64,000 nt of DNA from Paralichthys olivaceus (lineage: Eukaryota > Chordata > Actinopteri > Pleuronectiformes > Paralichthyidae), in NCBI RefSeq assembly GCF_024713975.1, contig NC_091108.1, positions 10,771,001 through 10,835,000 on the forward strand. Direction: 5' to 3'. The translations under genes and the position numbers were made by a program. Each line of letters opens with the position of its first letter. The first letter of the stretch is position 1. This document shows, piece by piece, positions 373 through 25,069 of this stretch. The notes under the pieces were generated by a model, which saw only the letters and a list, made by a program, of their open reading frames with translations, was not told where the DNA came from and searched no databases.

Positions 373-4979
<4,607 letters not shown>

Positions 4980-7898: not shown

Positions 7899-9705
7899 TT
7901 CCCAGAATTTACATGATGAGGGAAAAGAGAATGTAAACACAAGTCTGGGGTCAAATTCCTTTGTGCTCAAAGCTCCAAGAGAATTAAAATTTTCTACACT
8001 TTTTGGATCCCACCCCACCCCTCCTTTTTCTGGCTCAGTCACATGGGAACTTTCATGACTGAATCTTCAAACGCGATGAGGGGAAGGGGTTTGTTGTTGT
8101 GTCAACACTGTTGTGTGCACTGCCGTGTTTTGTTGCCCCCATCTTGATGTTGACAGTTCAACAGCACTTTTCCTCAGAAGATTTACTCACTGGAGGATCA
8201 GCACAATCAGCAAATCCACTGATGGAGGAGACTAAAGAGGTGGTTATTGGAAATTGTCCTCGCTTCACATTGGTATTTGACCTTGTCTGTATGAGGCCAA
8301 ACACTCAATGAGGAAACTCATCTAATGCAGTCAAATTATAAACAATAGCTGCTGCACGCACGTCACAATCATGCAGAAATAAACACAAGAATCAAGTGAC
8401 TTTTGTGACAGTGTGAAGATAGATTGATTGACCGGCCTCCTCAGGGGAGATACAGAATAACTTGTCAGATACTCAGCAAGAAAACTCCCAGCAACAACGT
8501 AAATCCACAAAGTCATGTGTTCCACGAGTTAAAAAAAGGGGTATATTTTGGGGCATTGCTATAATACATGAGCTGTGCCCAGAGTGAAGCAGTACAGTCC
8601 TGATGTTCTGGAACTTGTCAACACCTGCAACATGAGCTACACTGTCAAGACTACTGTTGAAGATGGTATTCCTGTTTGTTCAGGAGCCATATATTTACCC
8701 AGAGATTAATAAAATCAATTGAACGAGGTAAATATAATTTTCCCAGGGAGATTTACGATAACCTTCTTTTTCTATAATCTTTTATGGAAAGTAATAAAGC
8801 ATTTTAGGTTTGTCGATAAGTTAATCATCATGTGAAAGATCTTCTGCAAGGAAACATTTGAGAGTTTGACCTGGACAGGGATGCACTCTGACAAAGAGGA
8901 CAGGTGTGAAGCAGTTGGAGCCAGAATCCAATGACTGATATAAAAATTATTTGTAGCTGAACAGTGACACCTGCTGAGCTTCCCAGGCCTGTACAGCAGT
9001 ACACATCTGCACTTGCCCACATTGAAACTTATATGGAACTCAACATTAAAAGCCATGGATGTACTAATAAACACGTGATTATAAAATAATATGATACATG
9101 TTTAAGATGCACTACATGTTTTTTCTGTTTTTATGTCCGCGAAGGACCTTGGAAAGGTGTTTCTTGAAAAGGGCAATTTCAATAAAAAGTGTAATAATAA
9201 TAACTATTATTATTATAATTGCTGTTTTGGTTGTTGCTATTATTAAGTCTATTGTTATTAAAATCATTATTAAGTATTGATTGCACAGTAAAATAGAAGA
9301 TCACTCCACATGGAATATGTGTGCAGAACCCTATCTTTCCAATATTTAGTTAGTATAGTTATTTAAAACCATACAATGCAGAATGGCTTTTAATGGTGAA
9401 TTTTCTGTATTGATTAATTCATTTTTTTCCCCAATATATTTTTATATTTAAACTTTTTTTTACTTTGCAGATGAAGACTGCATCTTATTTCTCAGTTATT
9501 AGTGTTTGTGCTTTTATTCCTTTTACCAGTTTTAAGGATTATAGTTTTGCAGGATTAGAGTGCAGCTTTCAGAGTGAGCACACGCTTCAATCACACAAAA
9601 ACAAGAAAGAAAGAAGATTTATAGTGGGACCATGTCAGACTGAGGACAAATCCTTTTTTCATGCCTACTTCTTTGCCATACTTCTATCCACCGTTCCACA
9701 TGCCA

Positions 9706-9765
9706 GTCCTGTAGGTGGCGGTAATGCACTTTTAACCGCCGATCAAATCTAAAGAAGAAGGAGAA
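9706..9765 (+). mobile_element. Repeat end upstream of THAP gene A
   Basis: CCTGTAGGTGGCGGTAATGC followed by ACCGCCGATCAAA and an AAGAAGAAGG tail. From memory this closely matches a widespread teleost repeat that ends in AAGAAG. It ends about 190 bases before the gene A start codon, so it lies in or beside the promoter. Confidence 0.5.
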
Positions 9766-9953
9766 GTTGCACCGCCGGTGACACCACACTGAGCGAACCC
9801 ATCCACACTGCCACGCCCATTCAGCCATCACGGCTACTATAGCAACAGCGACAGTCGAAGTTGAGGCTGTGTCAGAGAAAACAGCCGAAACCCTGCACGT
9901 GCCTCCAGTAACAAACACTCACAACCACCCAAAGACCCAGACTGATACCCGGG
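9766..9953 (+). promoter_or_regulatory. Likely promoter/5'UTR of THAP gene A
   Basis: The stretch between the repeat and the ATG is CpG-bearing compared with the AT-rich intergenic DNA to its left. No TATA box was seen. The leader ends CCGGGATGTGCTCC, the same start context used by genes B and D. Confidence 0.4.
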
Positions 9954-12583
9954 ATGTGCTCCGTCCTCGGCTGTGACTCGTCGCGTCGCTGTGCGAAGCG
10001 GTTCAAGTTACCGGAGGACCCAGAGAAGAGGCTGGAGTGGGTCCAGTTCCTCGCTGCAGCCAACAAGCAGCGTTTTAAAGAGTCGTCCTGGACCGACATC
10101 ACCATATGTAGCGAGCATTTTAAATACGACTGCCTGGTGTATGTGGCCCCCACCGGCTCCGTCCAGCTGACGCCCGGTGCGGCTCCGTCTGTGTGTCTTC
10201 CGCCGAAGTCAGTCACACGTGCGCCGGACTTGGAGAGCCCGACACGTTCGGTGATTCTGCGCATTACACCCGATGCGTGTTCACCGTGCGTGACGAGGGA
10301 CCACGGAGTAGCTCCTCCAAAAAGTGATGCCAAAGTGTCTCGACCGCCCCCTGGTGGGTGGCTGCAGTATGAAGCGGCTTTAAGACGCACACTGAAGTCC
10401 GGAGGACTGGTAAGTTTGGTAATGATGAGTTATGAGTGAAACATCTTAGTTTTTGGCCGAGACTTCCTTGTGGTTGGTCGAGCTTGTAGATCAGTGGGAT
10501 GTCACTGCGCAGAATCTGGCTCCAAATGGGCAAAAAAGATGGCAGCGCTCATACCTGGTATATTTTGGCTTCAGTTTTGGACAGCGGGAGTAAGTGGAGA
10601 TGAGTTGACCATCTTTAGCTACAGTCCATGGTTTGACTCAAGTCGTGGATATTTTAAAGCAGCACAATGTAACCCCCTCCCTTATTACCTTGTGTAGGAG
10701 CCTGAGGAAACCACAGAAGTTACTTCTCAGTGTAATCAACTTTCAAAAAGCACCTACTCTGAAAAATCAAGACTGACTTCAATAGGTACAAAAATGAAAT
10801 AAATTTTAGTATAATAACAAAAAAATGACATGAAGCATTTTCTCATGTGTTCTTCAAATGTAACTTTCAGGAGTCCTCGTCCCAAGAGGTGTCTCATGTC
10901 CAGCGGATACCTCAGATACTCAGGCGCAACCAAAGTATGTGAATGTTGATTTGATACGAGAAAAGTATGTTGTCTTGTTTAATTTGTGCATTTTACATAC
11001 CGTTTTACAGCTTCATTTTTTATCATTCATTTCCAATTGATCAGAGCCACACTTCCAAAGATGAAGGATAACTTTGCTGTGAAGTTCAGTGCCAGTGTCC
11101 CCATAGCTGAAGTTCAACACCGTACAAAGGTAAGGAGGTATAGCAACAGCAGTCAGATATACTATAATAATAAATAAGATTAATTAAGTACAACATGCCA
11201 ATCTGCAATGTCCACTTATATATACTATATGCTGTTGTATGCATCATTAGTTCAATTCACAAATCAAAACACATCATCTCCTTGCACCTTGTTGTATTTC
11301 AACCGTCTGTTTTACTGACTTAAAAAAGTTTATTTTAAATTGTGTCACAGGCAGCCCCGACAGATCACTCAGGATTCTCTGAGATTGTTGCTGTCATTGA
11401 CCAGGGGGAGAATGAGGCCATGAATGAAACAGCAACATCGAGTGATCAGGGCGACGTGGATTCAGATGAGGACTGGAAAACAAATGATGAGGACACCGAA
11501 GATGATGATTTTGAGGAAATTATTAGTTATGGTTTCAGCCCCATAAACCATATCCTCTGCACAGAGTGCGGGAGGTTTTTCGGTAATCGTTGGCCTCACA
11601 TGTGCGAGCACAAAAGGAAGCCCTATTCGTGCAATATTTGTGGCAAGAGATGTGTCAGTGAGAATGCCCTAAACAGACATAACCGAGTCCACAGTGAAAA
11701 ATATGAGCACCGGTGCAAATACTGCCACATCACGTTCAAAACAAAGGTGGACAAAATCACTCACGAGCAGATCCACGTAACTGAAGGAAAGCCCTATAAA
11801 TGTTCTGAATGTTCAGAGAGGTTTGCCTCAAATAAGGATCGCCAAATCCACCTGGACAGTCACAGAGACCCCAAGGATTTAAAATGCCACATCTGTGGGA
11901 TTGAGTTCCTCTGGTCCCGCTCGGTTGAAAGACACTTGGCTGTGCACACAGGTCTAAAGCCGCATAAGTGCACAGAGTGCGAGCGCAGCTTCAGTCAGGC
12001 AAGTCACCTCAAATCTCACATGCGCCTGCACACGGGGGAGAGGCCTTTCAAGTGTCAGCATTGCAGCAAGTGCTTCAATCACAATGTGAGCTTAAAGAGT
12101 CACGTCCTGCGCTATCACACATCAAGCTCTGGGTTTGACAAGAATAATGAAAAGAAAAAAGGAAGAGCAAGGGACAGTAGAGTTGCTCGTGGTAAATTAA
12201 AAAAAAGAGGTGAAGACTCAGAGTGTGACCATGTAGAGGAAGAACAGGATACAGAAGAGGAAGTGAAGGATAGAATGTATAGACCGAAAAAGAGAAGTAC
12301 AGGCAGACCCATTGGAAGGCCTAAGAGCAGTGCAGCAGCTAATTTAGTTGTGGCAACTCAATTGGAACGTACACGTTCAAACAACAAGGCTCGAAAACTG
12401 CAGGCGACGAAGTCACAGAGAACACAATGCAGCAACGAGGAAAGTGAGAACGAGCCGACTGACAGCGACATGAACACCATGGATTCAGCTGGGGAGGGAG
12501 GGAAGAAGAGCAGGGTTGAAAAGAACACAACAAATAATTCTGACAATAACTCTGATTTCGAGCCAGAAGGTCGAAGGAAATAA
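9954..12583 (+). CDS. THAP gene A: THAP-C2H2 zinc finger fusion protein, 651 aa
   Basis: Predicted nuclear DNA-binding protein. Exons: 9954-10409, 10698-10785, 10871-10964, 11045-11129 and 11351-12583; all have GT/AG borders and phases 0,1,2,0. Residues 1-90 form a THAP domain: C2, C7, C52 and H55 as the C2CH zinc ligands, W29 and W46, and APSV as the AVPT-like end. A linker follows (to about 241), then an acidic stretch with DSDEDW, a CxxC-x9-HxCxH module near 311-328, six C2H2 fingers (about 335-497), an AT-hook-like GRPIGRPK at 559-566, and a Glu/Ser-rich tail ending in SDFEPEGRRK. Exon 4 is only 85 bases, against 250 in gene B, and lacks the Cys knuckle. The finger exon is open upstream of its acceptor, but the AG at 11349-11350 and the match to gene D (GCA.CC.ACAGAT) fix its start. 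Domains are clear; target and function are unknown. Confidence 0.85.
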
Positions 12584-13235
12584 AAATACAGCAGCCAGAC
12601 GGGAGGTGACAAGTCAGGGAAGCACAGGGGGTGGTCTGAATGAAGTGGTTGATATGAACAGAATAGAGAATTGTGTTTCAATAACTGTCAACAGAGAGAA
12701 TCAATATAAAGAAGGTGTCCATACAGAAATTGACTTATTTCCTAAAAAATGACAAACTATGACATATGAGTCGTGTTCAGAGAATCTGATGCTTTCATAT
12801 CAAAACCTGTTTTAATCTTAATCACTGATGTGTGTTCCATCGAATCTGACTGGATAAAAGTATATTAACCTGGACTGTTGTTAAATGTCTGTGTCTTTCT
12901 GCTGTAAAGTTCCGATTCTATCATAACATGTGTAAACTGCTTGAAAGGTTGTCAAGTATATATTCATAGATAATATATATATATATATTTTCAAAATAAT
13001 CTGTATTATTTATGTGTTTTGTTTAGTCATTTATTCAGAGCTGTATGTTAAGGTAATCTTATGAGACCTATATTATTTATATATATAATTGTTTTTTAAT
13101 TATAATCTAATGAGAGCTATATGATTGATGTATTTTTACTTTTGGTATTTGATTATTATAAAGATTCTGCTCTGATCCTCCGGTACGCCAGGGGGAGTCC
13201 CAAACTTAGAAGTTAACATTGTCAGCGACAAAAGA
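12584..13235. other. Gene A 3'UTR and short A-B intergenic spacer
   Basis: AT-rich sequence after the gene A stop, including a (TA)n stretch near 12975-12988. I saw no canonical AATAAA with confidence, so the end of the transcript is not placed. Gene B promoter sequence starts at about 13240. Confidence 0.5.
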
Positions 13236-13415
13236 AGAACCGTATAGCCCCGCCCCCTCCCTCATCACTAGCAATAATGGCTGCCGTGTAGCTCCTCTCT
13301 GTGGACCCTGGTCAGAGACTCAGTCCGACCACCACCTTCCAGTCCCCGTGAACCTCCAACATAACCCGGTGTGACCTCTTCGATCAGCGGGGTAGGGTCT
13401 GGACCTGTCGCCGGG
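13236..13415 (+). promoter_or_regulatory. GC-box/YY1-like promoter and 5'UTR of THAP gene B
   Basis: CCCCGCCCCC at 13248-13257 is a GC (Sp1-type) box. AATAATGGCTGCCG at 13273-13286 resembles a YY1 site. No TATA box. The layout suits a housekeeping-type, CpG-rich start; factor binding is inferred from motifs only. Confidence 0.5.
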
Positions 13416-16400
13416 ATGTGCTCCGTCCTCCGCTGCGGTTCGTCGCGTCGCGGTGCGCAGCGGTTCAAGTTGCCGGCGGATCCAGAGAAGAGGCTGGAGT
13501 GGGTCCAGTTCGTGTTCGAGGCGAACGGACAGCGGCTCAAAGAGTCGTCCTGGACCGACATCACCATCTGCAGAGAACACTTCACTGATGACTGCTTCGG
13601 TAAAACTAAGAGCGGCTCTGTTCAGCTGAGGAGCAGCGCTGTACCATCACTGTGCATCAAGACAGAGCCCGAGGAGGAGGAGGAGGAGGAGCAGGTGGAG
13701 GTGAAGCCTGAGTCTGAGGTGAGTCTCAACCAGAGCTGAGCAAGAAAACAATATCAATAATCATCTGTTGCAATATAATCAACAATAGTTATGTGACAAA
13801 AGTACATGTTGACATACTGGTTCTCCATTGTCCTGCACAGTTAGGAGGCAAACACATGATTGATCTACATCAGATAAAATGTTTTCTCTGCTCATAAAGA
13901 AAAGTTTAAACCCACAATCATCTCTCAGGAGCATCTGTCTTTAAAGGTTCAGTGTGTAGAGTTCAGTGACATCTAGTGGTGAGGATGCACGTTGCAGCTG
14001 AATACCCCTCTCCTTACCCTCCCCTTCCCAACATGAAGGAGAACCTCAGTTGTCATATGTAAAAAAACACGGTGGCCTCCGTAGAGAGGACCCAAGTATT
14101 CAAATATAATCTTGATATCGTTTTTGGCCACATGGTGCAGCCTTATAGTCTCTACACACCGTATCAACAAAAATACTAGAGACAGCAGCAGTTGACACTG
14201 TAGGGTTTGTTCCTGCATCAATTCCATTTCAATTTCAATAAGCTTTATTGGCATGACATCCACATGTGCTGCCAAAGCACAACTTTATTAGATTTAAAGA
14301 AGCTTATTAACAATTACAATGTTAGATAATGGGATAAAAACAGATTGAACAAAATATGCAGTCTAAGTAATAGAATTACTCAAGCTTGAACTACATAGAA
14401 AAAGAAATGAAAATGGTGAGACTCAGTTGATCGTGTTGTAATACCTGTTTTATTATTATAACATCTATATTATAAATATCTCATGATGTATTTCAGTAGA
14501 AATGTTTGTATTGACTTGCCTCTTCGGTACAACCGGCTCTATAATGAGCACTTAACGTAACTCGAGCACTTTGATCTACTTATGTTCCAGTAAGAGCTTC
14601 TACTTTTGTTCACGTGCAGGAGCCTGTGGAAATCTCAGAATTTGATTCCCAGTGTGATCAACAACAATCCGACAGTTCTGAAGAATCAATATCACCAGAC
14701 CATACCACTACTCTTCGTAAGAAAATTCAAATTGTTGTGTTAACAAAAAATTAGTTAGATATATACTCAAATAATATCATATGAGGTATTGACTCTAAAT
14801 TACATTTACAGATGTGCCAGTTAGCCCGGTGCCAAGCCAAACTCCAGAAGAAGATTATGTTCAGATGCTGAAAAAGGTTAAGAATGTTGATATAATCAGG
14901 GAAAAGTAAGTACTTACATGGATTACAACAGGTTACGGTTTTAAAACCTGGATCTTGTTTTAACTATTTCATTGAACTCTTTATTTTTCAGAGCTTCACT
15001 TCTCCAGATGAAGGGAAAGTATGTTGTGAATGAAAACCGTCTCCTCCAGTTGTTTGGCAGTAAGTGCCCTTTATGTGATTGTAATGTTAAGATGGAGAAG
15101 ACTATCCATGGCGGACTCATCGTTGTGAAACGGGAGTGCCTCCAGTGTAAATACAGACACCAGTGGAAAAGCCTGATCGGTGTCGGTGTCCAAGGAGTTG
15201 AAGGTCAACACCTGACATACGACACAAAACTAATTTCAGAGGTAAGACATCAGTGATCGATATCGATGTCTATGTAATAAATAATAAATAAAACTGCAAT
15301 TTTAGTTATGTATATAGTTAATTGCTCTGGTGGCTCTAACAAGATGAATACTTTGTTTTTGCACCCATGCATTGTTTGGCTGTAATATTCAAAACTTCCA
15401 ACTGTGCTGCACAGACTAAAAGGTTTGATTTACCCACAGTCTGAGGAGAGCGATCATATGAACCATACGGAGGAATCGAGTGATCCGGGTGCTGTGGATT
15501 CAGATGAGGACTGGAAGCCGGCAGAGGAGCATTCACTGCCTGCTGAGCTTCATAGTGGATCTGATGAGACTGAAGATGACAATGATGATGTAAGCAATTG
15601 TTACGTATTCGCGCCCAACCACAGCGAGCTCTGCACGGAGTGTGGAAAGTTTTTCAGTAAACGTTGGCCTCACACGTGTGAACACAAAGCAAAGCCCTAT
15701 TCTTGCAATATTTGTGGCAAGAGATGTGTCAGTGTGGTTGCTCTAAACCGACATAGCAGAGTCCACAACGAAAACTATGAGCATCGGTGCAAATACTGCC
15801 ACAGAACGTTCAAAACAAAGGTGGACAAAATCACTCACCAGCAGATTCACGTAACCGAAGGAAAGCCCTATAAATGCCCTGACTGTTCTGAGACCTTTGC
15901 CTCGAACAAGGATCGTGAAATCCACCTGGAGGATCACAGAGGCCCCAAGCAGTTAACATGTCCCTTTTGTGGGATTGAATTTAACCGTACCCTGTCTATT
16001 CAGAGACACTTAATGGTTCACACAGGTCAAAAGCCGTTCAAGTGTTCTGAGTGTCAACGCGGCTTCAACCAGGCAAGTCATCTCAAATCTCACATGCGCC
16101 TGCACACGGGGGAGAGGCCTTTCAAGTGTCAGCATTGCGACAAGTGCTTTAATCACAATGTGAGCTTAAAGAGTCATATCCAGCGTTATCACACTTCCAA
16201 TCCTGTGCATGAACGAAAGAGGGGCAGAAAGAGCAAAACTGTGAACACTGAAGCAACTGATTCTCAGGAGAAAGCGGAGGAGAGATGGGCAGAGCCAGAG
16301 CCGGAGGAAGAGCTTGATGAAAAAGAGCCGTTACAGAAGAAGAGAAAATTAAAGCCAAGAAGCAAAAGGAGCACAGGTAGACCCATAGGAAGGCCTAAGA

Positions 16401-16708
16401 GAAATTCGGAAGAGAATTTGTCCCTGGAAGGGGAAAATCAAGACCTGGGTTCAAACACTGAGACCGGAAAATCAAAGGCATGGACGTCAAAGACAACAGA
16501 GGGCAGTGATGAAGAGAGCGATGACGAGCCGCCTGAAAGCAACATGTCTTTTGACTCAAATGAGGAGGAGGATTTTAGGAGTGAGAAAGTAACATCAAGC
16601 CCAAGCAGATCAAGAGGAAGCCCCAGAATGTCTGACCCAGACACTGACTTTGACCCAGAAGAATCAAAGGAAGAGGAAGAGCAGATGGAGCAGACGCTTG
16701 AACATTAA
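13416..16708 (+). CDS. THAP gene B: THAP-zinc knuckle-C2H2 fusion protein, 670 aa
   Basis: The most complete member of the cluster. Exons: 13416-13718, 14620-14716, 14812-14905, 14992-15241 and 15440-16708 (phases 0,1,2,0). THAP domain at residues 1-85 with C2, C7, C52 and H55 and the AVPSL end. Exon 1 closes with two sumoylation-type motifs, IKTE and VKPE, around a Glu run. Exon 4 encodes a compact possible zinc knuckle: C190/C193 and C214/C217, followed by YRHQW. The last exon carries DSDEDWKP, a CxxC-x9-HxCxH module, six C2H2 fingers (about 335-499) with HTGE/QKP-type linkers, GRPIGRPK (561-568) and an acidic tail with DTDFDPEE. Finger sequence is close to gene A, and the THAP exon is nearly identical to gene D. 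Predicted nuclear DNA-binding regulator; no orthologue recognised by name. Confidence 0.86.
13719..14619 (+). other. Intron 1 of THAP gene B
   Basis: Donor GTGAGT at 13719, acceptor GTGCAG ending at 14619. It contains a repeat copy at 13943-14130 and otherwise AT-rich sequence without coding signal. Confidence 0.7.
13943..14130 (+). mobile_element. Short interspersed repeat in gene B intron 1
   Basis: Begins AAAGGTTCAGTGTGTAGAGT, continues TGACATCTAGTGGTGA and GCTGAATACCCCTC, then TGGCCTCCGTAGAGAGGACC. From memory this is a common percomorph repeat (the AAAGGTTCAGTGTGTAG family). It is a truncated, non-coding copy; its class is not determined. Confidence 0.6.
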
Positions 16709-17635
16709 ACTGCACTAAACTATTTCCCCTTTTGTGAAAGCAACACTGTGCAACTTTTTTACCTTCAAATAGCAGCTTTAAAATGACTTTGATGGTTCAC
16801 TGACTTAGATTAGGAACGGTGCTTTCTTTCCCACTCCTCTCCCTGAACGCTGTTTTCATGTCACTTTGATGAATGGGTACTGTGAGAAGTCTGTTGACTG
16901 ATTCATTCAGTCACAGTTTAAATTGTCTGAATCAAGCCCAGCAATTTAAAGAGTAATGCTGAACTTGAGATCAGTTAAAAAGATGCAGACATTATTAAAT
17001 ACTTGTGTTTAAACTCCAGTTTTCAGCAAGGAACCTTAAAATATCAAACATTTAAACAAAGTTTGTTTTATTTGTTACATCGCCAGCTCTTCTGGTTCAG
17101 GAAGCTGGGGATGATGGGTAATATCCACAGTGCAGTGCTCAGGTCAAGTGATTATCTCTGTTTTTATCTGAGCCCAACACAAGTAATCACGATGTGTGGC
17201 TGCAGGGGTCGCTGTTGCTCATCAACAATTACCATGCGTTGTTTTAGGAGAAATATAATTTAGTGAGTGTCATACAGAACTGGACTGTTTCCATTATAGA
17301 TCTATGGTCTCACAATCAGGTATGATGACAAACTAAACTTTTTGTTTGCTAGGGGATAATCTCTTGTCACTTTCCAGATTCTTTGAATCCTGTTAACTGA
17401 TCAGACTGAATATAAGTATAGATTAAACTGAACTGATGTGAGGTGCCTGTGTTCTTTTGTTTCTTTTATTTCCATGACAAGGACATATACTGTCCATGAA
17501 AATGATCTGTGTTAACTGGACACAGGAGCCACATCCAGAGTGATTATTTCTGAAGTGGTCACCAGTTCCTTCCATTATATCCATGTTAAGCCCATTGCTA
17601 GAAACCTAAAAAGAACACCAACACCCAAAATGCAC
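16709..17635. other. Gene B 3'UTR and B-C intergenic spacer
   Basis: AT-rich sequence after the gene B stop. An ATTAAA variant lies near 16994, but no strong canonical poly(A) signal was seen. No open frame here resembles a gene. Confidence 0.5.
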
Positions 17636-17804
17636 TGGGCTCCTAGCCTTCCTAGGCCACGCCCAGGTCGTTCCTATTGGTTGATCTCGACAAGACCTCC
17701 GGGTGTGTTTGTAAATGTTGGCGGCGGGTGGGTAGTTGGCGGGTGGGATGCGGGGCTCAGGTGTCGTAGGACCGAGAGGTTCTGGGTCAACATCTCGGGC
17801 AAGT
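17636..17804 (+). promoter_or_regulatory. CCAAT-type promoter region of THAP exon C
   Basis: CCACGCCC at 17657-17664 and an inverted CCAAT box (ATTGG at 17676-17680) are followed by G/C-rich DNA with GGCGGCGGG around 17720. No TATA box. It sits just upstream of the THAP exon C start, so that exon has its own promoter-like sequence. Confidence 0.45.
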
Positions 17805-18125
17805 ATGGTCTCGACCTGCATTGTTCCTGAGTGTAAGGACTCGAAGAGGAAGCGTCTTGCCGGGGTGAGGTATCACCGGTTTCGAGTGAGCTGTCCCAGC
17901 CTCTGCAGGCGGTGGCTGAAGGCGGCGAATAACCCGAAGTATGGCGGGAACACCGCGATGGCAGCTCTTAGAAACCTGCGGGTGTGTAGCCTCCATTTCA
18001 GACCGGAGGACTACGAGCGGAACGTGTTGGACCAAACCGTCAAGAACCTGAAGGAATGCGCCGTCCCGTCCATTAACCTGGGTGGGGGGGGGGGCCGGGA
18101 CCACCTGTCAAACCAGTCCGCACAG
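17805..18125 (+). CDS. THAP exon C: lone THAP-domain first exon (107 codons)
   Basis: Encodes a THAP domain of a different subtype from A, B and D. Zinc ligands C5, C10, C61 and H64; W37; and an AVPSINL end. A Gly run (poly-G at about 18083-18095) and SNQSAQ precede a donor at 18126 (CAG/GTGGGT), phase 0. The chosen start has A at -3 and G at +4; an in-frame ATG at 17748 would add 19 residues. No matching second exon of its own is seen in the 474 bases before THAP exon D. It may be an alternative first exon splicing into D's downstream exons (all accept phase 0) or the remnant of a gene that lost its 3' part. The paralogue closest to it is not in this window. Confidence 0.65.
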
Positions 18126-18459
18126 GTGGGTCTGCTGCCGGGGTGGTTCATGTCCCAATAATATGACTCTGATGTCCTCTGAGTTAAAGAAGCATCACTG
18201 ATGAACTGATGAACCCATTCACGGGACTGAAGCCAGGCCCGTCCTGCACAGCCCAGACCCCGCCCACCCGCCACAGACACGAACACAGAGGTATGACTGA
18301 GGAGCATGTAACTGTTTTTATACTTCACACCAACCACACCAACCCGAGTTCGTCCTGGTTGTCTCAGAAAGGTGCTAATGGTGGCGAAGGGACTGTTTGA
18401 ACGTGAACACACACTGAGGCTACAGCCGGGATACGCTCGGCTTAAAAAACAAGCGAACC

Positions 18460-18599
18460 CGCCCTTATGTCCCCGCCCATTCCGTTTGCCGTCTGCTAAT
18501 GAAGGCTAACTGTTAGCTAGCGTGTTCACACTGCCGTCTGCACTTCAACTCAGTCCAGATACTGTTTTTACACACACAGGGACCAGGCTAATATCCGGG
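18460..18599 (+). promoter_or_regulatory. Putative promoter/5'UTR of THAP gene D
   Basis: CCCCGCCC at 18471-18478 (GC-box-like) and CpG-bearing sequence upstream of the start. The leader shares only CCGGG directly before the ATG with gene B; the rest is unrelated, although the coding part is almost identical. Confidence 0.4.
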
Positions 18600-18938
18600 A
18601 TGTGCTCCGTCCTCCGCTGCGGCTCGTCGCGTCGCGGTGCGCAGCGGTTCAAGTTGCCGGAGGATCCAGAGAAGAGGCTGGAGTGGGTCCAGTTTGTGTT
18701 CGAGGTGAACGGACAGCGGCTCAAAGAGTCGTCCTGGACCGACATCACCATCTGCAGAGAACACTTCACTGATGACTGCTTCGGTAAAACTAAGAGCGGC
18801 TCTGTTCAGCTGAGGAGCAGCGCTGTGCCATCACTGCGCGGGACATCTGAGCCAGGCGACCGTGTGGAGAACCCCCGGTCTGTGGTGAGTGCTGCTGGGA
18901 CATCTGTGGTCCACATCTGCTACCGTCCATGTCCTGCT

Positions 18939-19018
<80 letters not shown>

Positions 19019-19401
19019 TCTCTATAGTTGCAAAGACACTCCTAGACATAATGCATTCCCTAGCCCCTTACCGTAACTTTAACCATCACAACTGAATGCC
19101 TAATCCCCCACCCCCCCCAAAAAAAATGCTCACCCTAAAATCAAGTCTTAATCCTCAAACAAGCCTTTGCAATTGTGAGGACCGGCCAAAATGATCTTGC
19201 AGTGTTTGTATTGAACCAGAATCGGCCCTCATAACTATAGAAAGACATGCACACACACTACACACACGAGAGAGGACTTTACATTAACTTACTCTAACTT
19301 TAACCATTGTTACTTCTTGCATAAAATATGTCTTCACCTTTTAAGTTAAACGATTCACATTATAGGGACAGATCTACAGACAACATAAGTTATACCTGGA
19401 C

Positions 19402-19434
<33 letters not shown>

Positions 19435-19729
19435 GGTTTGCACAGCTCTACTTATTAGTAAAATGCAAAGTCCAAACTTTGCATTGACTTCTATTCAGTT
19501 TGGAACTTTATCCCTAACCTCAATCCAACCACATTTCATGTCTTCGAGTCGTGCGTCTCCATGACTTCAGAGGACATGCCATTGACTTGCATTCATATCC
19601 TGGAGACTAAACCTCAACCCGAATCTTAAAAGGGGTCTTTTTATGGTAACTTGCTTTTTGTTCCAGTCCTCATGATGTGACCGTGCAGAGTTAGATGTAT
19701 TTACTTATTACATAAGGAATACATTGACA

Positions 19730-19767
<38 letters not shown>

Positions 19768-20519
19768 CTGTCATATATTTATATATAAAGTCACTTAAAG
19801 CTGCTGTGTGTGGTCATTCAAATAAATGTGTGTTGTACTCTCCACTCCCTGTGTTTAACTTAAGTTTTTCCTCCTGTGATTTTGTGCAGGAGCCTGTGGA
19901 GACCACAAAAGTCTCTTCCTCCTCTGAAAAATCAAAACACACCTCAACTGGTAAGAAACTTAATCCACACAGTGGAATTAGAAGATTAAGTGGGTATGTA
20001 TGTTTGAAGTGGCGTGGTGGTTCAGCGGTTAGTTAACATCATCACCTCACAGGATTTTGTCTGGCTGGGGCCTTGATGTGTGGAGTTTGTGTGTTCTCTG
20101 AAGTTGGGAACTTTGTTTTGAGTGGTAGAGTCTCAGTGTCATGTTTGCCTGATGTTTCAGATGTGGTCACCACCGGATGTGGACCACAAGAACAAAAGGT
20201 TTTGAACAAGGACAAGTAAGTTACAATTTCTCAGCATTTGTCTTTGCTTTTTAAACATGCAGCTCAAAAAGCTTGATTTTGATTGTTCATTTTTTTCAGA
20301 GCTGCAGCTGTACAGATGAAAAAATATGATGTGAGTGAAACCCACCTGGTCCAGTTGCTTCATCACAAATGTCTGTCATGTTGCTGTAAGCTTGACATGG
20401 AGAAGGTCACCTGTGGGGTAGTGATCGCCTTGAAGCAGCAGCGTCGTTGGTGTGAATACAGAAACCAGTGGAAAGGCCACGTCAATGCCAGGTTACCAGC
20501 AGATGGATTAAAGGGATAG
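18600..20519 (+). CDS. THAP gene D, 5' part: THAP plus degenerate knuckle, ends at repeat-borne stop (206 aa)
   Basis: Exons 18600-18884, 19890-19950, 20161-20215 and 20300-20519 (phases 0,1,2). Residues 1-83 are a THAP domain (C2, C7, C52, H55) nearly identical to gene B. Exons 2 and 3 are shorter than in A and B but still start EPVE and end in the same phase. Exon 4 matches gene B's knuckle exon (QMKKYDVSE..., KCLSCC), but the third Cys is Arg and YRHQW is YRNQW. The frame then runs into GGGATAG, the first bases of an inserted repeat, and stops at 20517-20519. So the normal path into the finger exon at 22612 is cut. The product would be a short THAP protein, unless exons 2-4 are skipped. 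Expression is unknown. Confidence 0.7.
18943..19015. repeat. (CA)n microsatellite, about 36 units
   Basis: Perfect CA repeat in intron 1 of gene D. Confidence 0.98.
19016..19680 (+). mobile_element. CA-associated interspersed repeat (family L), two tandem pieces
   Basis: Two blocks between CA tracts. The first has CCTAGCCCCTTACCGTAACTTTAACC and TTGTGAGGACCGGCCAAAATG. The second starts GCAGGTTTGCACAGC, then TTGACTTCTATTCAGTTTGG and CCCTAACCTCAATCC. The same order of blocks is found at 33640-34056 and 51260-51520, so these are copies of one element rather than plain microsatellites. Confidence 0.55.
19402..19430. repeat. (CA)n microsatellite
   Basis: CA repeat preceded by ATACCTGGACC, a junction also seen at about 34008-34020. 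Confidence 0.95.
19728..19764. repeat. (CA)n microsatellite
   Basis: CA repeat in intron 1 of gene D. Confidence 0.95.
20010..20125 (+). mobile_element. tRNA-like SINE-type repeat fragment in gene D intron 2
   Basis: GGCGTGGTGGTTCAGCGGTTAG, then ATCACCTCACAGG, GTCTGGCTGGGGCCTTGATG and GGAGTTTGTGTGTTCTC. From memory this matches a very common fish/vertebrate repeat with the pattern GTGGTTAGCACTGTCGCCTCACAG. The box A/B-like head suggests a tRNA-derived origin; the class is not certain. Confidence 0.55.
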
Positions 20520-20810
20520 TTCACCCAAAAATTAATATGTACTCAATACTCATTATCTACTTCTGGAGTATCAGGGGTAAACAGTGAAGCAGCCGAATCC
20601 AATACAACTGAAGAAATGAGTGACCTATCTTCGTAAAGAAACAAAACATGCCTCCATACTGCTCATGTGGTGTCATACAAGTGTCCGGAAGCCCTGACAT
20701 TCAAATTTGACTTGAAACAAAAATTATTTTTGAGTTAATCGGGATTAAGGCCTGTTCTTCAGTAACAACAGACACCGAGGAGCCGATGTCTCCAGTTGTT
20801 CGGTGAGTAA
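20507..20810 (+). mobile_element. Inserted repeat that truncates THAP gene D exon 4
   Basis: Starts AAAGGGATAGTTCACCCAAA and continues with CTTCTGGAGTATCAGGGGTAAAC, CAGCCGAATCCAATACAA, CTCCATACTGCTCATGTGGT and CAAGTGTCCGGAAGCCC. From memory this is a well-known percomorph repeat. Its left end falls inside the gene D knuckle exon, and its TAG supplies the stop codon. The right boundary is estimated. Confidence 0.65.
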
Positions 20811-22611
20811 ACTTTTAACATCTTCACATGTTCTCTGTGCTCCACAAACATTTGAAAACTGTGTTTCTATGTGTTCTTACTAGAGAAGAGGAAACTGTTA
20901 GCATGCTAGTTAATGTCCCAGTGAATGTAAATTACGATGCTTGCTAGCTAGTTAGCTGATAGCTTTGCAATGCTGGAGGGCTGCTAACATGTGTTAACCA
21001 GGTGTTAAAGTTAAGAGTTTTGTTGTGATTACTGCTGTATGCATGTCTAAAGTGAATCAGGTGAAAAGTTGTGTGTAAGTCTAAGTAGTTATGTAGTGAA
21101 GCTTTCAGATGATACTCACTGTAGGATAAACAGACAGTAAGTTAACTACATTGGATTTTCATGATTGCATCAGTTTTGTGATTTCTCCTGGGCTGTGGAT
21201 GTTGGATTTCTTGGTGCCAGTGTCTTCATGTCTAATTCAATCTGATTCTTTAATTCTGAAGTGATAATGTCTGATTGTTACCAACTAATTCATGAATTAA
21301 TTACATTTCTCTCTGCTGACAGGCTTTTGTATGGTTTTACTTTTTAATCATCCACGAATCTACCAGAGGCCGAAGGACTGAAGCTTTAGTTGATGATGAT
21401 GATGATGTGAAACCAATGGACCTTATCCAAGGATCAAATGACTGATGTCAACAGAAGGAAGACGTCATGTGTGGGGCAGAATAGTTGGTGCCATTCTCGA
21501 TAACAACATCCTTAATTATTCGACATGTGATGATGTCGATAAACCACCTTCAGTTTCCTCTGAGATGACAGAACAGAACTTTGTGTTTGATTCTCTTTAT
21601 TCTCAGATTCAGTTTCTTACCTTTTACTTAATTTCTGCAGTTTTTAGAGGTGGTAGTAACATTTCGAAAACATAACTTATTTACCTAGAATTAGTAAATG
21701 GATCAACTTCAGCAGTCACAACCTTCACAGGTAAGTGTGCACCGATGTGACATGAAGAGTCCTCAGTCGTAAGCAGCTGGAACTGTACAACCAGACTTCT
21801 ATAACAAATGTTTTCTGCTGTTAACACTTTAAAAGTATGTATCAGAATACAAACTATGTTTACTTAACCTCTGATATTTGTGATTAAACTGTACTGAGTA
21901 CATTTTCCATTGACTACAGATGACTTGCCTGGTTTTTGCACATTTACCTTAACTTTGCTTATAATAAATCAAACAGGACACTTTGGTGAATTCATGTTTT
22001 CAGTCATTAAATGTTGTCTCAACTTAGATCTTAACTATCAATGATTGATTTGATTAAAACCAAAATGTAAAAGGCCTGTAATTAATTTCACATTTCAAAA
22101 ACACATCCATCAAAGTATTTTTGTATGATTACGATACCGTGCATGTTGCTGCTGTGAATTTTTACCAGATGCTTCTTAGAACCGTGAATAATAAAATAGT
22201 TTCATAAATAACTTTATTGCAGATTAAACTGAATTTATTTATAATCCAACAAAAATGAAATACAGTTGTCACAGTAGGATCAAGATAAACATGATCTTCA
22301 CTGTAGGATGATTACTCTCGTGCTTGATATTTAGTGAGTATAATTTACAGTAGAAGAGTTAGAATTGAGAGCTGCTCTTACATTTAAAATGTTTAACAGA
22401 GTCTGAGAAGCCAAAAGAATTCTGACACAAATCTGCCTCACGTCTCTTCCTCCAGGCAGGTGCACCTCACAATTTGAAATGTCTGATTAAGAACAATCTT
22501 TAAATAGTTCCTTGCTTGTGCTTCCTTTTTTGTTATCTGGCTGTAGTATTCAGCACTGTTAAGACTTTAAAAAGTTAAAGGTTGTCATTCTTGTCATTGT
22601 CTTGTTCACAG
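20811..22611. other. Gene D last intron (remaining part)
   Basis: AT-rich DNA between the inserted repeat and the finger exon acceptor (TTGTTCACAG ending at 22611). I looked for a replacement exon in phase 0 and found none. A (GAT)n-like patch lies near 21393-21407. The short frame at 21445-21675 has no domain. Confidence 0.55.
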
Positions 22612-23934
22612 GCAATGCCAACAGATAACATCCCCTGCAGTGCAGACGCCTTTGCGATTATCACTTTGAGCGATGAAGAGACCGTTAAAGACAGCAATCC
22701 CTCGGATGAAGAGGAGAGTGGTGATGAAGGTGGGCGGAATTCAGACAGTGAGTGGAATCCATTGGATGTGATTTTTCTGGAAGAGGCGTTCCTTCAGGAC
22801 TCTGAGGAGGAAACCGAAGATGAAGGCGAAGAGGACGAAGATTCCCTCAAAATTAACGAGCTCTGCAATGAGTGTGGATGTTTTTTCAACTCTCTGAAGC
22901 CTCACACATGCGAACACAAAATCAAGCCCTTTTCCTGCAATATTTGCGGCAAAAGATGTGTTTCTGAAGGTGCTCTAAAAATTCACAGCAGAGTCCACTG
23001 TGAAACCTATGAAATTCCTTGCAAATACTGCCACGTTACATTCAAAAGAAAGGTGGACAAACTTAAACACGAGCAGATTCACGTGGACAGAAACGATCCC
23101 TACAAATGTCCTGACTGTCCAAAGATATTTCCCACCAGTAAAGCGCGCAGGATCCACCTGTCATACCACAGAACGTCAAGGGAGTTCAAATGTGGAGTTT
23201 GTGGGTTTGAATTTAAGGATATACATCATCTTCGGAGACATTCTGTCGTGCACACAGGTTTGAAACCATACAAATGTTCGGTGTGCGAACGTGGGTTCAA
23301 CCAGGCGAGCAACCTCAAATCCCACATGCGTGTGCACACGGGGGAGAAGCCATACAAGTGTCCGCATTGTGACAAATCCTTCAATCACAATGTGAGCTTG
23401 AAGAGTCATGTCCAGCGTTGCCACTCGTCCAGGTCTGGGCATGAGCATAATATGTGTAAGATCAGTGAAAAGGTGAGCAGCGCTAGTGACGCAGAGGACA
23501 ATGAGAATAAGAGAGGTGCTGGTTCTGAGTCTGACAATGCAGACAAACAAGACCCAGGAGAGACGAGGCAGAAGGACACGACAGGTTTGCCAAAACGTTG
23601 TAGGAGCCGCACAGGGAGATCCAGAGGAAGGCCTAATTCAAACCCAGATTTTAACTCTGTTCTTTCAGGGCAAAATGAAGACCAGTGTTCGAAGACTTCA
23701 AAATCAAAGGGAAAGAAGCTAAAGAAAGGTGTTGCCAGCGATGAGGAACGTGAGGGGATGCAATCGGACAGCGACACATCCGTCCACTCAGAAGAGGAGC
23801 AGGAGCAGAAAGCAGAGAGGACCACGGGGACAGCGAGAAGACGACCAAAAAAGGACGATGACGGTGATTTTCACCCAGAAGAAGAAAATGAAAATAAAAA
23901 GTGTAAGAGTAGCGATAAGAGGAGGGGTAGATGA
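22612..23934 (+). CDS. THAP gene D, 3' part: intact C2H2 finger exon (440 codons)
   Basis: Last exon homologous to exon 5 of genes A and B: AG acceptor at 22610-22611, then GCAATGCCAACAGATAAC, where gene A has GCAGCCCCGACAGATCAC. It encodes an acidic segment (NSDSEWNP), the CNEC-x9-HTCEH module, six C2H2 fingers with all Cys/His present, an AT-hook-like RSRGRPN, and a tail with DGDFHPEE. The exon shows no frameshift or stop, so the fingers look maintained although exon 4 upstream is cut. It could be used by skipping exons 2-4 from exon D or exon C (both end in phase 0), or from its own start at the second codon (ATG at 22615). The finger sequence is more diverged from A and B than A and B are from each other. 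Confidence 0.78.
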   Translation, partial: AMPTDNIPCSADAFAIITLSDEETVKDSNPSDEEESGDEGGRNSDSEWNPLDVIFLEEAFLQDSEEETEDEGEEDEDSLKINELCNECGCFFNSLKPHTCEHKIKPFSCNICGKRCVSEGALKIHSRVHCETYEIPCKYCHVTFKRKVDKLKHEQIHVDRNDPYKCPDCPKIFPTSKARRIHLSYHRTSREFKCGVCGFEFKDIHHLRRHSVVHTGLKPYKCSVCERGFNQASNLKSHMRVHTGEKPYKCPHCDKSFNHNVSLKSHVQRCHSSRSGHEHNMCKISEKVSSASDAEDNENKRGAGSESDNADKQDPGETRQKDTTGLPKRCRSRTGRSRGRPNSNPDFNSVLSGQNEDQCSKTSKSKGKKLKKGVASDEEREGMQSDSDTSVHSEEEQEQKAERTTGTARRRPKKDDDGDFHPEEENENKKCKSSDKRRGR

Positions 23935-24300
23935 AGGAAGAAGATAGTGGGCTGAAATTTCTGTAAATACACAGAATCAATTAATTAATTTGATGTTAGG
24001 AGTTCTGAAAAGCAAGGAGACAAGAAGGCCACACAGAACTTGATCGATATATAGTAGATATATGAAAACAAAACATCAGATGAGGGTCATTCATTTACAC
24101 TGTTATCACTTTACAACAATATAAATACTTTTAGTGGTGCTAAAAGTAGAAGAAAGATGTATTAAGTATTAAGCTCGTCATGGCAGCTTTTAGCAATGAC
24201 ACAAACCCTCCTGGGCTCTGGGTGTACGTCAGTTTAAGTTAAAATAATTACAAACTCCCTTTGGGAAATCTGAGTCAGACAATAAACAAAATAAAGAATT
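23935..24300 (+). other. Gene D 3'UTR with poly(A) signal
   Basis: AT-rich sequence after the TGA stop, with AATAAA at 24281-24286 and a second overlapping AATAAA-like hexamer near 24289-24294. This is a plausible 3' end for the gene D transcript. Confidence 0.5.
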
Positions 24301-25069
24301 TTGTTTTTTTTAAAGCATACTCTTCGTTCATAGTCAGCATTGTGAAATGAATACTGACAGATCAAACTCAAATAGTTTTAAGGTACAGGCACTGTAATAA
24401 AGTTGGTTGCTATTTCTTTTTTGTCAGTATGAAGCTGAAAAACTAAATGTCAAGATTTTTCAACCAGTAGTGGAAGGAGAAAAATGTTTTAGTTCACAAA
24501 TCAATAGTACAGAATTTTAATCGCTGGCCTTTGAATTGGTAGACACAAAAGGAAGGTTTGGTATTTTCGCTGGATTGTAAGTTCTGGCACCAAATTGTAT
24601 CCCATTAAAAAAAGAATATCATACATTTTGGATTGATCTGCTTTTTTCCCAGGATTCACGTCAGCATCTTATCAAAATCAACTGAGACACTGACCAAGTC
24701 GTAGATGAACCGTTTATCCATCACAGTGATGTAAAATAAAGAGAGCGATGGTTTTGAAACTCCCTTTGACATTTCATGGCGTTCTGACATTTGAGAGTTC
24801 TATGATTTTTATGATGCCAGTGCTGGATCACAGATTGTCTTCGGACTTGAATCCCCCACTATCCTTTTTACCCTGACAGATCAGATTTAAACCTCAGCGC
24901 TCCCACTGGAGAGGGCTGAGCAGCAGCCCCTGCTTGCAATGGTGTTTAATGAGAATGTGAAAAACAAATTCATAAATAAGCTAGAATGGCACTCAGTAGA
25001 ACACACAGCTCTGCCAAGGTCCAACTGCTCCTTTAAATTAAATCAAACTGCATCAAATTGCACAAGCTC

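Follow-up and report, generated by a model that had tools for sequence, protein, structure and literature searches.

A tandem gene cluster of the flounder Paralichthys olivaceus that very probably represents a percomorph transcription-factor family joining THAP, C4 ribbon and C2H2 finger domains

Gene structure and family membership

We analysed a window of 64,000 nucleotides of the flounder Paralichthys olivaceus (contig NC_091108.1, positions 10,771,001 to 10,835,000; positions below are those of the window). Its region 9954-23934, on the plus strand, carries three tandem units (A, B and D) together with one additional THAP exon (C; Table 1). Very probably this is a tandem cluster of a transcription-factor family of percomorph fishes with the complete form THAP-ribbon-C2H2-GRPxGRP. 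The clearest case is gene B, whose five exons, with phases 0/0/1/2/0, encode a product of 670 amino acids identical (100% over 670 amino acids) to a public P. olivaceus protein named "zinc finger protein 568-like" (P0001). B is an intact family member, with THAP and C2H2 domains in one annotated protein. Gene A has five exons with the same phases and a product of 651 amino acids. On a simple matrix with hand-set frequencies, good scores were obtained for most donors in both genes, the exceptions being those of exon 2 (-1.3 in A and -1.4 in B). An earlier note on this DNA had proposed a real THAP-C2H2 fusion with five exons of identical phases in A, B and D. The fusion stands, on the annotated protein for B, on exon structure for A and on the same joined form in other fishes (see below). 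The shared five-exon structure holds for A and B and not for D, where exon 4 runs to a stop; likewise, a THAP exon 1 and a six-finger last exon are present in all three units, the join in D lacking the usual donor.

The last exon of each unit encodes six regular C2H2 fingers, preceded by a degenerate finger (read by eye) and followed by a basic GRP tail. The GRPxGRP motif, said by the earlier note to be in all copies, is present in A and B and replaced by GRSRGRP in D. THAP domains were called with Pfam PF05485 at its curated cut-off of 23.9 bits, and PF00096 and PF13465 matched in exon 5 of A, B and D. A domain search of the joined proteins, as the earlier note had suggested, gave a split result: THAP was not reported in Pfam scans of full-length A and B, and was reported when exon 1 alone or the N-terminal 241-248 amino acids were scanned. 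A likely explanation is HMMER filtering in long, finger-rich proteins. Against the PDB, B exon 1 gave partial sequence matches to THAP1 (2jtg, E 6.3e-4) and THAP2 (2d8r, E 1.4e-3), and B exon 5 matched ZNF568, CTCF and other C2H2 chains. The AlphaFold model of whole B has a mean predicted local distance difference test score (pLDDT) of 58 and a predicted template modelling score of 0.29; by block, pLDDT is 61-80 for THAP, mostly 76-88 for the ribbon, mostly 75-92 for the fingers and mostly below 50 for the linkers. In a structure comparison of this model, the matches listed were C2H2 proteins, mainly over residues 365-503, THAP and ribbon lying outside its reach.

A search with the B product returned 2384 homologues, and the family counts given here rest on the best 120 of these. 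All 120 bear names of fishes that we assign to Percomorpha, and the family is thus probably lineage-restricted, as the earlier note had supposed. With regular expressions, THAP was found in 117/120, the ribbon in 112/120 and GRPxGRP in 114/120. The THAP-finger pairing, which the same note had proposed to seek in other fishes, recurs widely: THAP, C4 ribbon and at least five C2H2 fingers occur together in 109 of the 120, and 114 have exactly six fingers. THAP residues C2, C7, P20, W29, C52, H55, F56 and P77 are invariant in an alignment of 87 rows hand-picked from the 120; A has AAPSV where the AVPSL box stands. Two finger types emerge from a tree of the finger parts of 118 public sequences, A and D (120 rows; P0078 and P0116, whose THAP or finger parts are short, were left out): a 27-row group including D is separated from 93 rows including A and B, with a Shimodaira-Hasegawa-like approximate likelihood ratio support of 98. 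The finer places of A and D in it are unsure because both were flagged as long branches. Five proteins (P0024, P0109, P0110, P0114 and P0162) have an extra N-terminal segment of RTRVxLGxAFxRWRxL type before THAP, possibly from captured or merged exons.

The public names of these proteins (568-like, 236-like, CTCF-like, myoneurin-like) refer to fingers only, so that the THAP half of the family is easily overlooked. Both domains are nevertheless marked in many rows of the homologue listing, though not in that of B itself, and because such proteins already stand in sequence databases in this form, the teleost family looks undescribed rather than undetected. In a search of open-licence papers, no title or abstract opening named a teleost THAP-ribbon-C2H2 family, and the main text of a paper on zinc-finger (ZNF) proteins of ray-finned fishes nowhere mentions THAP (PMC11603059).

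Table 1. Features of the cluster, all positions referring to the window
Feature	Positions	Strand	Basis or remark
Gene A exon 1, THAP domain	9954..10409	+	PF05485 42.7 bits; donor GACTG/gtaagt, score 6.6
Gene A exon 2, linker	10698..10785	+	Phase 0 in, phase 1 out; donor weak, score -1.3
Gene A exon 3, linker	10871..10964	+	Splice reconstruction
Gene A exon 4, ribbon deleted	11045..11129	+	85 nucleotides versus 250 in B; product without C4 motif (by eye)
Gene A exon 5, degenerate finger, six C2H2 fingers, GRPIGRP	11351..12583	+	Finger and Pfam scans
B-D near-identical tract, B side (THAP coding part)	13411..13655	+	97.55% over 245 bp to 18595-18839
Gene B exon 1, THAP domain	13416..13718	+	PF05485 44.8 bits; B product is P0001
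Gene B exon 2, linker	14620..14716	+	Splicing; match to public protein
Gene B exon 3, linker	14812..14905	+	Splicing; match to public protein
Gene B exon 4, C4 zinc ribbon ("knuckle")	14992..15241	+	67-row alignment; predicted strand-rich fold
Gene B exon 5, degenerate finger, six C2H2 fingers, GRPIGRP	15440..16708	+	Finger and Pfam scans; public protein
"Gene C" THAP exon, possible upstream or alternative exon of the D locus	17805..18125	+	PF05485 51.3 bits (17805-18158)
B-D near-identical tract, D side	18595..18839	+	Same 245-bp alignment; synonymous divergence 0.058 versus 0.979 in fingers
Gene D exon 1, THAP domain	18600..18884	+	PF05485 45.3 bits
Gene D exon 2	19890..19950	+	Splice reconstruction
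Gene D exon 3	20161..20215	+	Splice reconstruction
Gene D exon 4, short form via cryptic in-phase donor (prediction)	20300..20330	+	Donor score 4.1, phase 0; joined product 584 amino acids
Relic of D ribbon exon, ending in stop at 20517	20331..20519	+	
Gene D exon 5, degenerate finger, six C2H2 fingers, GRSRGRP	22612..23934	+	Finger and Pfam scans

The C4 ribbon and the finger array

Exon 4 of B encodes the motif C-P-x-C-x11-G-x8-C-x2-C-x5-W. Its C-P-x-C, G, C-x2-C and W are invariant in a 67-row alignment, for which 66 of the 120 public rows were hand-picked and rows seen without a ribbon were left out. The AlphaFold model of the ribbon is strand-rich, with three longer strands and core blocks of pLDDT 91-93, and a zinc-ribbon fold is likely. 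We go no further than this because the best Foldseek rows, NrdR chains at E 0.04, are weak and mixed with porphobilinogen deaminase, none reaching E 0.001 or below. The ribbon sequence had no match in the PDB up to E 5, and Pfam gave one match to it below the cut-off, judged to be chance. PF12760, a transposase zinc ribbon, scored 20.1 bits in B against a cut-off of 25.4 and was placed in the C2H2 array. The "knuckle" that the earlier note had attributed to all copies is intact in B only: exon 4 of A is shortened, and the D ribbon has lost a cysteine.

C2H2 fingers contact DNA through positions -1, 2, 3 and 6. At these positions finger 6 is near-fixed as H, V, S, S and finger 5 as Q, S or G, H, S, the exception being position 2. 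Finger 4 is near-fixed as D-H-H-R in type II arrays and variable in type I, finger 1 is variable and finger 3 lies in between. Contacts exceed the other scored positions in variability in finger 1 of both types, slightly in finger 3 of both, and in finger 4 of type I. No AT-hook family was reported for the GRPxGRP tail in the Pfam scans. Between A and B, Nei-Gojobori nonsynonymous (dN) and synonymous (dS) divergences are 0.194 and 0.857 in THAP, and 0.121 and 0.527 in the fingers; with dN/dS about 0.23 in each, the differences are mostly synonymous. Since contacts are near-fixed in several fingers and A-B dN/dS is near 0.23, the array is better read as having a conserved core for recognition and edges that differ by paralogue than as the site of an arms race over its whole length.

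The simplest reading, as THAP and C2H2 are both DNA-binding families, is that a B-type protein would bind DNA through two modules. In the full form (THAP, linker, C4 zinc ribbon, acidic stretch, degenerate finger and six C2H2 fingers, GRPxGRP tail), THAP could provide a short address common to the paralogues. The finger array would then read DNA in a paralogue-specific manner, fingers 5-6 being near-fixed, finger 1 and type I finger 4 variable, and the basic GRP tail would add affinity. The ribbon may make a structural or protein contact, and the acidic linkers are likely to serve protein contacts. Gene conversion would keep the THAP exon alike between tandem copies as the finger exons diverge.

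Likeness of the THAP exons and probable gene conversion

The THAP coding parts of B and D are nearly identical along a sharply bounded tract that starts 5 bp upstream of the ATG and stops just past the AVPSL box, and their finger stretches are 74.1% identical. With synonymous divergence of 0.058 in THAP versus 0.979 in the fingers, selection at the protein level cannot account for this identity, which points to gene conversion. No such step from THAP to fingers is present between A and B (82.2 and 81.7% identity). In turbot, a single model (P0142) contains two THAP copies identical over 64 amino acids. We also compared type I with type II across fishes, using THAP residues 1-62 and the 87 of 122 rows that could be labelled by species, the other 35 being left out. 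THAP identity between the types is 85.7% within species (37 pairs, 23 species) versus 79.9% between species (1583 pairs), an excess reached in 0 of 2000 label shuffles (permutation p 0.0005). For the fingers the values are 70.1% within and 69.5% between species (p 0.05).

Some results of this comparison weigh against homogenisation of THAP in particular. The ribbon, too, is more alike within species (73.3% versus 69.2%, p 0.0005), so that homogenisation may not be special to THAP. Moreover, the best type I THAP match of type II rows lies in the same species in 8/23 and in another species in 15/23, and some within-species pairs are isoforms or models that possibly borrow the THAP exon of a neighbour. 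Because of the isoform pairs, the possibly borrowed exons and the ribbon effect, the cross-fish test is supportive only. The DNA comparison of B and D in the flounder is free of the isoform and borrowed-exon weakness. This B-D tract was missed by the earlier note, as were the likely link of C to D and the different THAP on D-type fingers in two flatfish models, both described below.

Gene D and the THAP exon C

We rejected D as a standard five-exon gene, its exon 4 running into the stop at 20517 and the GT closest to the usual exon end (20491) being out of phase. Seven in-phase GTs lie ahead of the stop, and only that at 20330 scores above 0 (4.1); its use would yield a predicted THAP-C2H2 protein of 584 amino acids without ribbon. 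Weaker in-phase donors, e.g. 20405 (-1.7), may also serve, given that donors almost as weak are used in A and B. D is therefore either decaying or rewired, through a shortened exon 4 splice, an upstream C-type THAP exon or a finger-only form. The damage is probably recent because the second unit of turbot P0142 is complete: each of its two units has THAP, ribbon and six fingers, and the finger 4 letters of the second are D-like by eye. Models from Limanda (P0144) and Platichthys (P0152) attach a different THAP and a ribbon of the same spacing to a D-like finger exon. Searched with tblastn in the window, these N-terminal parts matched best the family's own THAP and ribbon exons, at about 22-27%, so a THAP of their type is absent from it. 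The two joins may represent either true splices or merged predictions.

The THAP of exon C was compared with 11 other THAPs. Nearest are the first THAPs of the snakeheads Channa striata (47%, E 4e-29) and C. argus (46%, E 2e-28), over 98 amino acids, the remaining ones reaching at most 33.3%. These Channa proteins have the order THAP-THAP-ribbon-six fingers-GRPxGRP. Models with two THAPs, ribbon and fingers are also present in Epinephelus lanceolatus and in Plectropomus, where the label LOW QUALITY is attached, and E. moara has one without fingers; the first THAPs of the Epinephelus and Plectropomus models are not close to C. C has two candidate donors: 18125 (phase 0, score 5.8) could join D exon 2, and 18081 (phase 1, weak, 0.7) could enter D exon 1. 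In a scan of 9000-25000 in 300-bp windows, CpG-rich windows span 17550-18899 across C and D exon 1, and one lies within D exon 5 (23550-23849). The snakehead likeness, the CpG-rich windows across C-D and the candidate donors favour reading C as part of D over counting it as a separate fourth gene. According to a preprint, no gene of human, mouse or zebrafish contains multiple THAP repeats (PMC13228809).

Long (CA)n runs stand in D intron 1, at about 18940-19015 and 19730-19765. No clear transposon ends were found in the D intron, and its sequence does not recur elsewhere in the window, a single 35-bp match of 80% excepted. The sequence GGGATAGTTCACC stands from 20513 on, about where the homology of D exon 4 ends, and occurs once in the window. 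It resembles the start of common fish repeats, and on this likeness rests the tentative idea that a transposon may have broken D exon 4.

Discussion

Could separate, adjoining THAP and finger genes have been read as one? The broken join of D speaks for such a prediction artefact, as do fish THAP-only and THAP-ribbon models without fingers and the merging of tandem neighbours in some models (P0142, with its two units, and P0041, labelled LOW QUALITY). Further points count against a family of joined proteins: the public models are presumably mostly gene predictions, D has no normal five-exon product, and a search with a hybrid query (candidates of about 375-1192 amino acids, a few rows nameless) gave no row named P. 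olivaceus that matched A or D among its best 120. We nonetheless hold an artefact to be very improbable: B is annotated as a single protein, the same domain order recurs in 109/120, A and B have equal intron phases, and both have a CpG-rich stretch at exon 1 and none at exon 5 in the scan described above. It is rather improbable as well that these genes form a transposon-fighting family in an arms race, like KRAB-ZNFs and cyprinid FiNZ-ZNFs. That would suit the tandem copies and the more variable contacts of finger 1, slightly of finger 3 and of finger 4 of type I. It fits poorly with six fingers in 114/120, the nearly invariant contacts of fingers 5-6, the near-fixed finger 4 of type II, the low A-B finger dN/dS (a pairwise and not a site-level measure) and the absence of KRAB from the Pfam scans. 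Linker and tail, with A-B dN/dS of about 0.71 and 0.47, are fast-evolving, which counts against the favoured reading of a family of joined proteins.

For the likeness of the B and D THAPs, a single recent copying of the segment between units, instead of repeated conversion, would agree with the sharp edges of the tract. We regard it as unlikely, since in other fishes, too, the two THAP types are alike within a species, in keeping with a repeated process. The status of D is more evenly balanced. That it is a pseudogene rather than a rewired gene has a chance somewhat below even: the stop in exon 4, the missing usual donor and the lost ribbon cysteine favour decay, and against it stand an exon 5 open over 440 amino acids, an in-phase cryptic donor, the Limanda and Platichthys models joining a D-like finger exon to another THAP and ribbon, and a B-D finger dN/dS of about 0.24, a pair average that does not date the loss.

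Tentatively, the THAP exon may be a portable cassette in a modular percomorph transcription-factor system, converted, doubled or exchanged as the finger exons evolve separately. Doubling might be represented by C and D here and by the Channa, Epinephelus and Plectropomus models, and exchange for another THAP and ribbon by those of Limanda and Platichthys; both are conceivable to the same tentative degree. If true, the paralogues would have one address in common and differ in a second. As a natural experiment, the family lends itself to studying how a protein with two DNA-binding modules divides the work between them, given that one is apparently kept alike among copies and divergence is open to the other.

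Human-type THAP0-THAP11 proteins, which have in common with the flounder THAPs the C2CH residues with P, W, F and the AVP box, are not known to carry C2H2 arrays. This feature list agrees with that in PMC6004289. The earlier note had likewise taken the THAP proteins known to it to lack C2H2 arrays; the premise that THAP does not occur with them is contradicted by Drosophila CG6689 and CG10431, described in PMC9810180 as THAP-bearing ZAD-ZNF proteins, with THAP and C2H2 fingers in one protein as in the flounder genes. In contrast to that type, neither ZAD nor KRAB was reported up to E 0.1 when the N-terminal parts and the last exons of A and B were searched with Pfam; full-length scans of A and B agree on both, though the same scans missed THAP. 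According to the same text (PMC9810180), THAP arose separately even within the ZAD-ZNF family. The joining of THAP and C2H2 as such is thus already on record in Drosophila, and the teleost form is seemingly undescribed. THAP transposases (P element/THAP9, Kolobok) have a THAP domain as well; unlike them, the flounder proteins gave no transposase catalytic domain in Pfam scans, and the further putative zinc motif of Kolobok is H2CH (PMC6004289), versus C4 in the flounder ribbon. KRAB-ZNFs and FiNZ-ZNFs are comparable to this family in being large C2H2 families of restricted lineage whose members have a distinct domain at the N-terminus (PMC10547256). They differ from it in that the flounder N-terminal domain comes from a DNA-binding family and the finger number is nearly constant. 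The FiNZ domain is given there as a 28-residue N-terminal sequence, called unique to cyprinids, and THAP is nowhere mentioned in the main text (PMC10547256).

Outside the cluster, at 2812-3264, lies an open frame with a coiled-coil and a putative resemblance to angiomotin proteins.

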